Source: Arcobacter arenosus
GTDB taxonomy: Bacteria; Campylobacterota; Campylobacteria; Campylobacterales; Arcobacteraceae
Direction of reading: 5' to 3'
Assembly (NCBI RefSeq): GCF_005771535.1
Contig: NZ_VANU01000007.1
Coordinates: 62,001 to 126,000, forward strand
DNA: 64,000 bases
Every line of letters begins with the position of its first letter. Positions within the stretch are counted from its first letter, which is position 1. A program made the translations under genes and the position numbers. This document shows positions 50,079-54,803 of the stretch, in pieces. The notes under the pieces are model-generated. The model searched no databases. It saw nothing but the letters and a program-made list of their open reading frames with translations, and was not told where the DNA came from.

Positions 50079-50567
50079 ATGAAAAAAAATATATTAATTT
50101 CTGCCTTAATAATTTCATTTGTTTTTATTGGTTGTGCAAAAAGAAATGATTCCTTGAAGGGATTTAAAAATACTAATCAAAGTCCTATGGCAATACAATA
50201 TACTAAGAAAAGAGATTTAATTTATAATGGTTCATTAAAAGTTATGATATTTGGTACATATTTAAATAAAATTTCTAAAAAATATGAAACAGATAAATTA
50301 GATAGTTTTGTTGTTGGAATTCATATTAAAAATCAAGAAAATCATGATTTAGTAAAAAATAGATTTAGAGTTACATTAAATAATGATAAGCCAAAAACTA
50401 TGGTTAAGGTTTCAAATGATTCAGATATAGTTGAAATTATTCCCTTAAAAAATCAATGGGCAGATTATTATTTAATACATTTTGATAATAAAAAAGATGT
50501 TACAGAACTAAATCTAAGAATTATTCATCCAGTTTATGGATCGGTTTCATTAAATTTTCAAAAATAG
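50079..50567 (+). CDS. putative lipoprotein (162 aa)
   Basis: A signal peptide ends in the lipobox FIGC (cysteine 19). The mature part of about 143 residues is mainly beta-strand-like (LIYNGSLKVMIFGTYL, FVVGIHIKNQ, YLIHFDNKK) with no domain that I know. TTGGAG precedes the ATG. Its 3' end overlaps the convergent Slt-like gene by 47 bp. I recall a lipoprotein in the same slot (between mobB and slt) in C. jejuni. Confidence 0.75.
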   Translation: MKKNILISALIISFVFIGCAKRNDSLKGFKNTNQSPMAIQYTKKRDLIYNGSLKVMIFGTYLNKISKKYETDKLDSFVVGIHIKNQENHDLVKNRFRVTLNNDKPKTMVKVSNDSDIVEIIPLKNQWADYYLIHFDNKKDVTELNLRIIHPVYGSVSLNFQK

Positions 50568-51960
50568 ATTGTAAAGATATTTTATCTTTACTTTTTTTTG
50601 TTAATGAATTATAGTATAAAACATAATACATTAAAAAGTTTTTCTTTTCTTCTAAATTATCTTTTAGTAATAACTCTAAAGATATGTAAGGTTCTAAAGT
50701 ATTAAGTTCTATTTTTTCAAAATTTATCTTTACCCCATCAAAAACAATAGAAACCAATAAAGGGTTTTTATATCTATTCTCAATATTTGAAATATGAATA
50801 TTTGCAAATTTTAAGTTTTCATCAATATTAAAATAATCTATTTTTTCATTCTCTTTTTCTAAATTTAGAAGATTAGAAATTGAATCAATTAAATCAACTT
50901 TTAATTGGAATATTCCAACATTAAAGTCCCTAGAAATCATATTTAAATCAAAGTTTGATTTAGTTTTAGCAAGTGAATAAAGTAGGGCGATTCTATTTGT
51001 ATCATACTCTTTTCTTAACGAGTCTATATTTTCAATTTTAGTTAATAATGTACCTAAATCAATATCTTTTTTAACAATTTCAATTGCATTATATGAATAG
51101 AAATTTAATTCATTGCTATTTAAAAGATTATTTAAATAAGTTTCATCTTTTGTGATTTTATACAACCAAAAGTTAATTTTATCAATTTGATATTGAGAAC
51201 TTGTTTTTAAAAGTGCATTATTAAAATAAATAAATGCTTGATTAAAATTATTTATTTTTATATTACTTAATCCAAGAAGAAAAGATGATGTAAAGTTTAA
51301 CTCTTTATCATCAATTTCAAGTAGAGAACTATTTAAATTGTCTAATTTTGAATCTGTTAAAGAGATGTTTAAAAATTGATTAAATTTTTCTTTATCTATA
51401 AAAATTTTTTCAAAACTTCTTTTAGGTAATTTATAATTAAAATATTTTTGTCTAAATTCTTTATTTACATTTAAAAATATATCGTAAAAATCGTCTTTTT
51501 TCTGAGTAATTAGTTTTGTAAAAGGGATTGCCGCTGAGACCACTTTTAATTTATTTGAAAAATCAGGGTATTTGTTGTTGACTTTTTGTTTTATTAAATC
51601 AAATTCAATTGCTGATAATCTTGAAAGTTTTTTTGTATCAAGCCCCAAAACAATACAATCTGCATATGTATTTATAAGATCTTTTACACTCATATTCATA
51701 CATTGTGCAACAGCAAAAGTCTCATCATGATTATATTTTTTTGCAAAATTAAAAAATAACTCATTATTCATATTATCAATTAAAGATAAACTTTCATAAG
51801 CTATTTCAGAAGAGACATCTTTTTTCAATAATTCATTTATATAAAAATCCCTTTTTATACCTTTTTGAATCAGTTTAATATCTTCGAACTCTTTTGAAAA
51901 AGAATTGTCATCAGCGTTAGAAACTATTAAAAAGAAACAAAAAAGAAGAATGTATCTCAT
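50521..51960 (-). CDS. Slt-like periplasmic protein lacking the catalytic glutamate
   Basis: 479 residues with a signal peptide (cleaved near SNADD). A helical superhelix domain (about 25-320) leads to an SLT-like domain: LLYSLAKTKSNFDLNMIS aligns with the Slt motif ARQES-FNP-A-S, but the catalytic glutamate is K334. Later parts (NIDENLKFANIHI, LEPYISLELLL, YYVLYYNSL) still follow the family. It probably binds peptidoglycan without cutting it. Its slot is that of the soluble lytic transglycosylase in C. jejuni, as I recall. Confidence 0.75.
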   Translation of the reverse strand: MRYILLFCFFLIVSNADDNSFSKEFEDIKLIQKGIKRDFYINELLKKDVSSEIAYESLSLIDNMNNELFFNFAKKYNHDETFAVAQCMNMSVKDLINTYADCIVLGLDTKKLSRLSAIEFDLIKQKVNNKYPDFSNKLKVVSAAIPFTKLITQKKDDFYDIFLNVNKEFRQKYFNYKLPKRSFEKIFIDKEKFNQFLNISLTDSKLDNLNSSLLEIDDKELNFTSSFLLGLSNIKINNFNQAFIYFNNALLKTSSQYQIDKINFWLYKITKDETYLNNLLNSNELNFYSYNAIEIVKKDIDLGTLLTKIENIDSLRKEYDTNRIALLYSLAKTKSNFDLNMISRDFNVGIFQLKVDLIDSISNLLNLEKENEKIDYFNIDENLKFANIHISNIENRYKNPLLVSIVFDGVKINFEKIELNTLEPYISLELLLKDNLEEKKNFLMYYVLYYNSLTKKSKDKISLQSIFENLMKPIHKLDE

Positions 51961-52238
51961 TAGATTCCCATAAATAGTCTGCCAAGAAATGTTTCTAGAA
52001 AAATTAAAACTAAAATTACAATTAATGGAGCTAAATCCATTCCACCAAAAACAGTAGGAATAAATCTTCTTACCAATGAATATGCAGGTTCCGTCAATCT
52101 ATAAAGCATCTGAACAATAGGGTTATATGGATCAGGCCTTACCCAAGATAATAAAGCTGAAATAATAATAACCCATTTATAAAGTGTAATAACAGATAAT
52201 ATTACTGTAAAAACCGATCCTAAAAATGCATCCATCAT
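51960..52238 (-). CDS. YggT-family membrane protein
   Basis: 92 residues, two membrane helices and the family block SWVRPDPYNPIVQMLYRLTEPAYSLVRRF (key residues RPDP, P-x5-L-x-R-x-TEP). YggT proteins are linked to cell-envelope or division processes, not firmly assigned. It overlaps the upstream gene by 4 bp and the downstream gene by one. Confidence 0.9.
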   Translation of the reverse strand: MMDAFLGSVFTVILSVITLYKWVIIISALLSWVRPDPYNPIVQMLYRLTEPAYSLVRRFIPTVFGGMDLAPLIVILVLIFLETFLGRLFMGI

Positions 52239-53509
52239 TTTATAATTTCTCCAATATAATTTTTAATTAAAGGGTAAATATTATTCATATCTGGCCCATT
52301 TTCATTACCCAAAACCAGATAAGTGATTATTTTTTCAATCTCATTTTCTTTTAAACTAGTATTATTTTCAATATATTTTTTTAATTCATTAAAATTATTG
52401 AAAAAAGGTGCCTTATTCATGCAACTTTTTAGTTCTAAAATCCCATCTTTTAAAGTACTGTTTTCTTCTTTAGTTTGAAAAATTAAAGTTATTTTTTCTT
52501 TTAATTCTTTTATTGTACTAACTTCAGTTAAAAATAGTTTTGCAAGATTTCCTATATCAGCGTCAGCATAAGATAGGATTTTTGATAATCTAAGATTATC
52601 CATTAACTCTATATGCTTTTTATTTATTTTTTTTAATTCATCAATATCAAAAACAATATTATTATTAATGATGTTTTTTACATCAAAAGATTTAATAATA
52701 TCCTCTAAAGAAAAAACTTTATTTTCATCTTTTAAACTTATAGATACCAAATAGTTTGCAATGGCACTTGGTAAATAACCCTCATCAATAAACCATTTAA
52801 CATTATTTAAAGACTTATTATTTGATATTTCTGGCAAGTGTAAATAATCTATTTTTGTGTCGTATGATAATAAAGCTCTAGTATAAGTTTCTCTAGCAGC
52901 ATTAATTGACTCACCATCATTAGAAACAACAGTTGAGATATTATATAACATATCATCAATAGCACTTGCATAAACTTTTTTAGGCATTTTATCATGTGCT
53001 AAAGCAATATATGAATCTATTTCATAAGGTTGATAACTTATCTCACCTTTTAATAAATCATTAATAGTTACTTTACTGTCCGGTTCTTTAATTCTAACTG
53101 TAAAAGGTGCATTACAATTTAAAACAGTCTCGTCAGATAAAGTTGAACAGAAACCATCATATCTAATAGGTTTATTTGCTTTTTTTGCTTCCTCTTTTAA
53201 CTCATTTAGTTTTTCTTCGGAACAAAAACATGAATAAGCTTCTTTTTTTGCCATTAACTGCATAATGATTTTTTGATGGTATTTCAAATTTTCACTTTGA
53301 TAAACTACTCTTTCATGGTCAATTGAAAATAGATTTAAAAGTTCAAGTATCTCTTTTTCTATATTTTCAATATTGTTTTGTTTATCTGTATCATCAATGC
53401 TAATTAATAAAGGTTTGTCTAATTTTTTTGATAAGATATAATTAAATATACCAATTCTCAAAGTTTCAATATCTAAATGTTTAGTTGCGCTAACTCTAAA
53501 TCTTACCAA
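52235..53509 (-). CDS. glutamyl-tRNA synthetase paralogue with lost HIGH and KMSKS motifs
   Basis: 424 residues. It follows GluRS throughout (RVSATKHLDIETLRIGIFNYI, ISIDDTDKQN, YDGFC, EGYLPSAIANYL), yet the key motifs are gone: HIGG is D13-I-E-T, the RGEEHL block reads SNDGESI, and the KLSKR loop reads NNKSLNN. Aminoacylation by the usual mechanism is not expected. A second, intact gltX should exist elsewhere. I recall an intact gltX at this place in C. jejuni. Codon use looks normal and the frame is open, so it is not a fresh pseudogene. Confidence 0.8.
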   Translation of the reverse strand: MVRFRVSATKHLDIETLRIGIFNYILSKKLDKPLLISIDDTDKQNNIENIEKEILELLNLFSIDHERVVYQSENLKYHQKIIMQLMAKKEAYSCFCSEEKLNELKEEAKKANKPIRYDGFCSTLSDETVLNCNAPFTVRIKEPDSKVTINDLLKGEISYQPYEIDSYIALAHDKMPKKVYASAIDDMLYNISTVVSNDGESINAARETYTRALLSYDTKIDYLHLPEISNNKSLNNVKWFIDEGYLPSAIANYLVSISLKDENKVFSLEDIIKSFDVKNIINNNIVFDIDELKKINKKHIELMDNLRLSKILSYADADIGNLAKLFLTEVSTIKELKEKITLIFQTKEENSTLKDGILELKSCMNKAPFFNNFNELKKYIENNTSLKENEIEKIITYLVLGNENGPDMNNIYPLIKNYIGEIIK

Positions 53510-53510
53510 A

Positions 53511-54803
53511 CTATTTCCTTATAATAGAAAAAGATAATTTGTTAATCTCTTTGTGAGATTTAATATATTGATTTAAATCCTCAAGTTTTAAAGATTCTAT
53601 TTTTTCAAGTTCTTTTTGAGAATGGTCTTGTTCTAATCCCCTATAATAATTAGTAAAAGCTCTATTTAATCTACTTGATAAAGTTTCAGTTCGTAAAGGT
53701 TCACTACCTAATAAAAATTTTTTAGCAGATTCTAGTTCCTCTTTTGTAACACCACTTTTAACAAAATCTTTAACTAACTCTTTTACAAGTTTAACAGCTT
53801 CATTTGCACTTTCATTTTTTGTTTGTAAGTAACCTGTAAAATAAGAGTGTGATTTATTTTGAGACACATAACCATATGCTGAATAAGCAAGTCCCCTTTT
53901 TACTCTTATCTCTTCCATCAGTCTAGAACCAAAACCACTTCCACCTAGTATAAAAGAAGCAACTTTTGCCATATATGAATTTTCATCTTTTACATCAACA
54001 TAAAATGGACTACCAAAATAAATATATGCTTGTTGAGTTTCTTTTTTTACAGTATTAGTTTGTGTTGTTTCATTAACTTTTATTTTTGTTAACTTATTTT
54101 TATTTTTATTATTAAGAGCTTTTACAAGCTCTTTAATTTTACCTTCAATCTCATCAAAGTTAAAATCTCCACCCACAACAATAATAAGATTGTTTAAATC
54201 TAAAGACTTATCTAAAAAGTTTTTGATATCATTTAATTTAATTTTTGATATAGAGTCAATTGTACCAGATGATGGATTAGCTAAAGGAGTATCTTTAAAG
54301 ATTATCTCTTTTAAGTTTTTACTAGCTAGGTAATCGTAATCGTTCTCTTTTCTCTTTAAAGAGCCACTTGTAATTGTTTTGATTTTTTCTAAAACTTTTT
54401 CATCGTAATTAGGATCTTCCAAAAGATTTTTTAGAAGTTTAATAGCTTTTTCATGAACATCTTTAATAGAAGATAATTCAATTACAAAAGTTTCAAAACC
54501 AGTTGAAGCATTTAGTGATATAGCTGAGTTTTCTAATTTTTCTGCAAATTTTGTACTACCTAATTTTTTTGTACCTTCATTTAAAAGTTTAGCTGAAGTT
54601 GAAGCTAGGCCACTTATGTTATCTTGAATATATCCAGAGTTTTTAAATACTAACTGTAAGTTTAATATTGGAAGATTTTTGTTTTCTTCAAATACTACTG
54701 GAATATTTACTCCTTTTATATTAATATGCTTTATGGTAGCAGCCATTAAAAATCCTTGTAAAAATAAAAATGTTAATAAAATTTTTGAAAAATATGTTTT
54801 CAT
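53511..54803 (-). CDS. M16-family periplasmic protein without the zinc motif
   Basis: 430 residues with a signal peptide (to about 21). The M16 N- and C-domains are present (GSGFGSRLMEEIRVKRGLAYSAYGYV contains the C-domain R/Y motif, key RxxxGLAYS), but HxxEH is replaced by S68-TSAK (GLASTSAKLLNEG). It may be the non-catalytic half of a pair or a chaperone-like binder. It lies 6 bp behind mqnC and 1 bp before the GluRS-like gene. Confidence 0.82.
   Translation of the reverse strand: MKTYFSKILLTFLFLQGFLMAATIKHINIKGVNIPVVFEENKNLPILNLQLVFKNSGYIQDNISGLASTSAKLLNEGTKKLGSTKFAEKLENSAISLNASTGFETFVIELSSIKDVHEKAIKLLKNLLEDPNYDEKVLEKIKTITSGSLKRKENDYDYLASKNLKEIIFKDTPLANPSSGTIDSISKIKLNDIKNFLDKSLDLNNLIIVVGGDFNFDEIEGKIKELVKALNNKNKNKLTKIKVNETTQTNTVKKETQQAYIYFGSPFYVDVKDENSYMAKVASFILGGSGFGSRLMEEIRVKRGLAYSAYGYVSQNKSHSYFTGYLQTKNESANEAVKLVKELVKDFVKSGVTKEELESAKKFLLGSEPLRTETLSSRLNRAFTNYYRGLEQDHSQKELEKIESLKLEDLNQYIKSHKEINKLSFSIIRK

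Follow-up and report, generated by a model that had tools for sequence, protein, structure and literature searches.

Why would a bacterium keep an open gene for a glutamyl-tRNA synthetase (GluRS) in which every catalytic signature has disappeared? This question is raised by a gene of Arcobacter arenosus, here called gltX2, located on the minus strand at 52235..53509 (stop codon included) of the 64,000-nucleotide stretch of contig NZ_VANU01000007.1 that we analysed (hereafter, the window). The gene encodes 424 residues, ends with TGA and starts with TTG, preceded by AAGGA within the 3′ end of the upstream gene. All its neighbours discussed here are likewise on the minus strand. Upstream lies a gene that we take to encode an M16-type peptidase (53511..54803). 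Downstream are a gene for a YggT-like membrane protein (51960..52238), whose ATG overlaps the gltX2 stop codon as ATGA, and a slt-like gene (50521..51960), which occupies the lytic transglycosylase position in the Campylobacterota gene order and is presumably slt. An earlier note on this DNA, made from the sequence alone, had described an intact reading frame, with no strand given, in a conserved gene order. Both observations hold: the order M16 peptidase–gltX2–yggT–slt is kept, and at 146 of 154 gltX2 loci yggT was found as the neighbour.

The fold of the encoded protein is that of a GluRS. The product matches Pfam tRNA-synt_1c (1e-38) and, across residues 1–416, TIGR00464 gltX_bact, albeit with 241.1 bits, below the curated equivalog cut-off of 289.95 bits. 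Its AlphaFold model (pLDDT 92) has the complete GluRS fold, including the catalytic and C-terminal helical domains, and superimposes on Thermus GluRS (1j09) with a TM-score of 0.85 and Z of 34.4 over 417 residues. What has gone is the active site. When the protein is aligned with relatives and T. thermophilus GluRS, DIET (53462..53473) occupies the site of HIG(N), and VVSNDGES that of (V)IRGEDH, its SNDGES (52907..52924) corresponding to RGEDH(L/V). The KMSKR loop has been deleted, and NNKSLNN (52802..52822) is what remains at its site; all three segments are on the minus strand. The glutamate pocket is altered as well: in Thermus numbering, E41 is changed to D, Y187 to K and R205, within the SNDGES segment, to S. 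The protein has neither the HIGH-type nor the KMSKS-type motif by which a bacterial GluRS is recognized, and the H-φ-G-N motif of Campylobacterota GluRS2, HIGN in intact relatives, is absent too. Both the alignment and the model thus agree with the earlier note, which had read these three segments as lost catalytic signatures in a preserved fold. Judging by these residues, the gltX2 product is almost certainly catalytically inactive, and tRNA-Gln-specific glutamylation appears to have been lost.

The genome of the window also encodes a canonical GltX1 with HIGG and KLSKR motifs (G000:C2:146428-147525), the second gltX whose presence the earlier note had anticipated. The gltX2 product is only 30% identical to its own GltX1 compared with 38–57% to GluRS2 copies, and it scores 427.5 bits with the profile of intact GluRS2 proteins from other families versus 158.9 bits with the GltX1 profile of its own family. 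Dasgupta and Basu gave the HIGN form for Campylobacterota GluRS2 (PMC3927822), and GluRS2 of Helicobacter pullorum (L217) is intact. Because of the profile scores, HIGN in the intact relatives and the intact H. pullorum copy, the gene is the Campylobacterota GluRS2 of the tRNAGln-specific type, an ancient paralogue and not a fresh duplicate. In H. pylori, GluRS2 charges tRNA-Gln only, recognizing it mainly through the acceptor stem (PMC9976931). The window protein is orthologous to intact Campylobacterota GluRS2 and shares its gene-order type, length and fold, but differs in the loss of all catalytic signatures and in the presence of a functional-looking GlnRS in the same genome. The profile scores rule out recent duplication. 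GluQRS (YadB), likewise a paralogue of GluRS that does something other than charge its cognate tRNA, is ruled out as well (84.8 bits vs the cut-off of 276.7); GluQRS is an active glutamate-activating enzyme without the C-terminal domain, which the window protein has. Another second GluRS, that of hyperthermophiles, has been described as non-functional, being reportedly unable to glutamylate tRNA-Glx; however, according to the same paper it stems from gene duplication, has no tie to GlnRS gain and is not of the Campylobacterota type (PMC3927822). The suggestion in the earlier note of a new role after gene duplication therefore stands only in part: a non-catalytic role is likely, but the duplication framing is not supported, as GluRS2 is ancient and intact in GlnRS-less relatives.

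The ancestral job of Campylobacterota GluRS2 is to attach glutamate to tRNA-Gln for subsequent amidation by GatCAB. GlnRS, on the other hand, makes Gln-tRNA(Gln) directly, and the genome of the window has one (G000:C4:227341-229536): a 758-residue protein with intact PHIGH and VMSKR motifs, whose C-terminus is fused with a GatB/YqeY-like domain in the manner of Deinococcus-type GlnRS. Between this genome and a genome of another genus (G083), GlnRS is 91% identical whereas neighbour genes are only 49% identical; the corresponding values for G022 and G030 are 98.8% and 81%. Since GlnRS identity far exceeds that of the neighbour genes, GlnRS must spread horizontally. In the genome of the window, glnS resides on a different contig from gltX2. 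In several families, glnS was found some 0.2–3 kb from gltX2 (e.g. G117, G131, G203, G206, G214, G120, G168, G072 and G092), and such insertion next to the gene being replaced may have recurred or may be ancestral.

GlnRS is present in 60 of 104 genomes of the family and in 45 of 135 further genomes of the order. Nearly all genomes of the family have gltX2 with its frame intact, and most genomes of the order have the gene as well. The copies range from those with every signature preserved to those broken in various ways. When full-length GluRS2 copies of the family and the order were scored for six signature residues, it was the GlnRS that explained the state of GluRS2. All six residues are kept in 70 of 71 copies from GlnRS-less genomes, the sole exception (G076) coming from a 74%-complete assembly, from which a GlnRS could be missing. 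Conversely, among 80 copies from GlnRS-containing genomes, 75 have lost at least two residues and 33 have lost all six. Five are intact, two of them (G045 and G051) in genomes with a broken or partial GlnRS match. The G045 match (G045:C171:7988-9214) has 15 in-frame stops while gltX2 of that genome is intact; possibly, GlnRS was gained there and is now being lost, or this is an assembly or frame artefact. The raw count gives a Fisher p of 9e-36, but it ignores kinship and is not to be used alone. The neighbour-gene tree has 14 changes in eroded state. When 12 independent pairs were drawn at random 200 times, a mean of 10.4 pairs agreed with the link to GlnRS and none opposed it (p ~0.002). Both the catalytic residues lost and the deletions in the KMSKS loop differ from lineage to lineage. 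Some genomes of the order (G115, G118, G121, G129, G132, G153 and G164) have neither GlnRS nor a recognizable GluRS2, and must obtain Gln-tRNA by another route, presumably through a non-discriminating GltX1.

These counts bear directly on a published interpretation. A 2014 survey noted that GluRS2 and GlnRS co-occur in six species and proposed GlnRS as the non-functional partner, leaving the work to GluRS2 (Dasgupta and Basu 2014, PMC3927822). Although the persistence of GluRS2 and the retention of GatCAB in GlnRS-containing genomes could be taken that way, all 40 GlnRS sequences examined have an open frame with intact PHIGHA-type and MSKR motifs, and it is GluRS2 that is broken in 75 of the 80 cases. 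Both GlnRS motifs are also present in G124. Our data point the other way, to GluRS2 as the idle enzyme, and we regard an idle GlnRS as extremely improbable. GatB was found in 66 of 67 genomes checked, a near-universality that leaves no contrast for a comparison of GatCAB co-loss.

If GluRS2 is idle as an enzyme, is the protein itself still of use? In 17 closely related pairs of dead copies, maximum likelihood puts dN/dS between 0.02 and 0.15 with a median of 0.072, and each pair rejects ω = 1 (likelihood-ratio 35–289). For comparison, the median is 0.030 for intact GluRS2 copies and 0.074 for the neighbouring slt. Many of the dead pairs (e.g. G091/G095, G067/G068, G079/G082 and G092/G093/G096/G099) share the loss of the KMSKS loop, and so their divergence postdates the loss of catalysis; pairs that split after the loss have dN/dS of 0.05–0.12, similar to slt. 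For a few recent pairs outside the family, ω is near 0.37. Purifying selection across relatives, which the earlier note had named as a check, is therefore evident. The same note would have taken substitutions unshared among relatives as a sign of decay. Lineages do differ in their catalytic substitutions, as catalysis was lost many times over, but the remainder of the protein is conserved (dN/dS near 0.07). Lost catalytic residues combined with purifying selection on the remainder are the hallmark of a pseudoenzyme, and dead GluRS2 displays both.

Where the selection acts is equally telling. In the active-site segments, ω is 0.114 in dead copies versus 0.020 in intact ones, whereas elsewhere in the nucleotide-binding core the two values are nearly the same (0.042 and 0.046). 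Dead and intact copies have ω of 0.048 and 0.030 in the zinc/acceptor domain, 0.074 and 0.032 in the stem-contact region, and 0.101 and 0.066 in the C-terminal domain. Constraint has collapsed in the active site only; the core and the zinc/acceptor-stem domain are still constrained. A putative zinc module of the latter, C94-x-C96 ... Y117-x3-C121 (53147..53230, minus strand), is nearly invariant among dead copies: its four ligands C94, C96, Y117 and C121 are kept in 85–88 of the 85–89 copies that have a residue there, while the GltX1 type of the same genome is without two of the four. In E. coli, the corresponding domain serves to position the acceptor arm of the tRNA (PMC4381286). Also preserved in essentially all dead copies are R3, R139 and D185-D186. 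On the other hand, an anticodon-domain arginine position of the C-terminal domain (Thermus R435) is kept in only 41% of dead copies.

This pattern has to be set against the possibility that gltX2 is a functionless gene in slow decay, its frame being kept only for translation to proceed through to the overlapping yggT start, thus avoiding polarity on yggT-slt. The ATGA overlap, the unshared catalytic substitutions, the faster evolution of dead copies than of intact ones, the shortened copies in some f18 and f5 genomes and the clean deletions elsewhere would all be expected in such a case. However, polarity bars stops and frameshifts but not missense changes, and yet these are strongly selected against; moreover, the constraint is regional across the protein. 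The window copy itself keeps 49 of 53 positions that are invariant in 55 other dead copies of the family, compared with 21–63% at variable positions. We therefore consider slow decay improbable, and in its pure form decay or polarity is ruled out by dN/dS. Nevertheless, the window copy may be under weaker constraint than other dead copies, since it evolves faster: it diverges more quickly than its neighbour genes, with a gltX2/neighbour distance ratio of 1.39, whereas the median ratio of dead copies is 0.83 and that of intact ones 0.42.

A retained role might also be sought with the operon or envelope proteins (M16 peptidase, YggT and Slt) instead of tRNA, given the overlapping genes and the yggT neighbour at nearly every locus. 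Yet the gene order is equally kept around intact, presumably tRNA-charging copies, and it is the enzyme core and the zinc/acceptor domain that are most strongly constrained, which makes such a role unlikely, if somewhat less so than decay. Still less do we favor the idea that the protein is enzymatically active with a different chemistry or on a different substrate, as an adenylate-forming or deacylating enzyme. The catalytic-domain residues R3 (Thermus R5) and D185-D186 (D194/D195) are kept in essentially all dead copies, and H. pylori GluRS2 reportedly hydrolyses excess Glu-tRNA(Gln), which can be cited in favor of this idea. However, every lineage has lost the ATP-binding HIGH and KMSKS residues in its own way and the loops differ in length, which leaves no sign of a shared new active site.

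The explanation that we consider quite probable is that a horizontally acquired GlnRS displaced GluRS2, which has been kept as a pseudoenzyme with a probable non-catalytic role. According to this scenario, GlnRS-YqeY gained horizontally, in many lineages separately, would take over direct synthesis of Gln-tRNA(Gln). As GlnRS makes this product directly, charging by GluRS2 would no longer be needed and might even become harmful. The sequences show that the active site was lost lineage by lineage through different substitutions and KMSKS-loop deletions, while strong purifying selection on the core, the zinc/acceptor-stem domain and the C-terminal domain has retained the protein. Dead GluRS2 would most likely bind RNA or protein in a non-catalytic capacity. 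More tentatively, and with somewhat less than even confidence, we propose that it may bind the acceptor arm of tRNA-Gln, as GluRS2 of H. pylori does, acting in channelling or as a chaperone, in sequestering, or, with the GatCAB that these genomes retain, as a scaffold. The earlier note had thought of tRNA-Glu binding, but if tRNA is the ligand, tRNA-Gln is the likelier one. Since several families keep dead copies, the binding role is probably older than the loss of catalysis. The chances seem about even that Campylobacterota GluRS2 has a second, non-catalytic function of ancestral origin, important enough for at least 10 lineages to have kept the protein although each, having gained GlnRS, independently dropped its catalysis.

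Retention of the dead gene is nearly complete in Arcobacteraceae, the family of the window. Outside it, dead copies are sometimes shortened, and in some GlnRS-containing lineages gltX2 is cleanly absent upstream of yggT (G108, G110, G126, G139, G151, G205 and G238). Because these lineages deleted the gene, dead GluRS2 is evidently not needed everywhere, and its role can be lost.

Pseudo-synthetases have been described before, HisZ among them (PMC9437257). Like the window protein, HisZ, a pseudo-HisRS serving as the HisG regulatory subunit, keeps the synthetase fold without aminoacylation and is under selection; it belongs, however, to class II and has a known partner, whereas the loss described here is recurrent and tied to GlnRS gain. 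A full-text search, with most subscription journals outside its reach, turned up nothing on dead GluRS2 in Campylobacterota apart from the co-occurrence noted in 2014. The automatic annotation of dead gltX2 genes as 'glutamate--tRNA ligase' is misleading. What the Campylobacterota offer is a natural experiment repeated many times, in which GlnRS is gained and GluRS2 catalysis is then lost, while in Arcobacteraceae the loss of the protein almost never follows. The catalytic and non-catalytic roles of a tRNA synthetase are thereby separated, and a simple deletion could test for the hidden role, the enzyme being already inactive. If GluRS2 does have an ancestral second function, its dead copies would constitute a recurrently evolved family of pseudo-tRNA-synthetases, and the same function may be present, unrecognized, in the intact GluRS2 of relatives such as Helicobacter.
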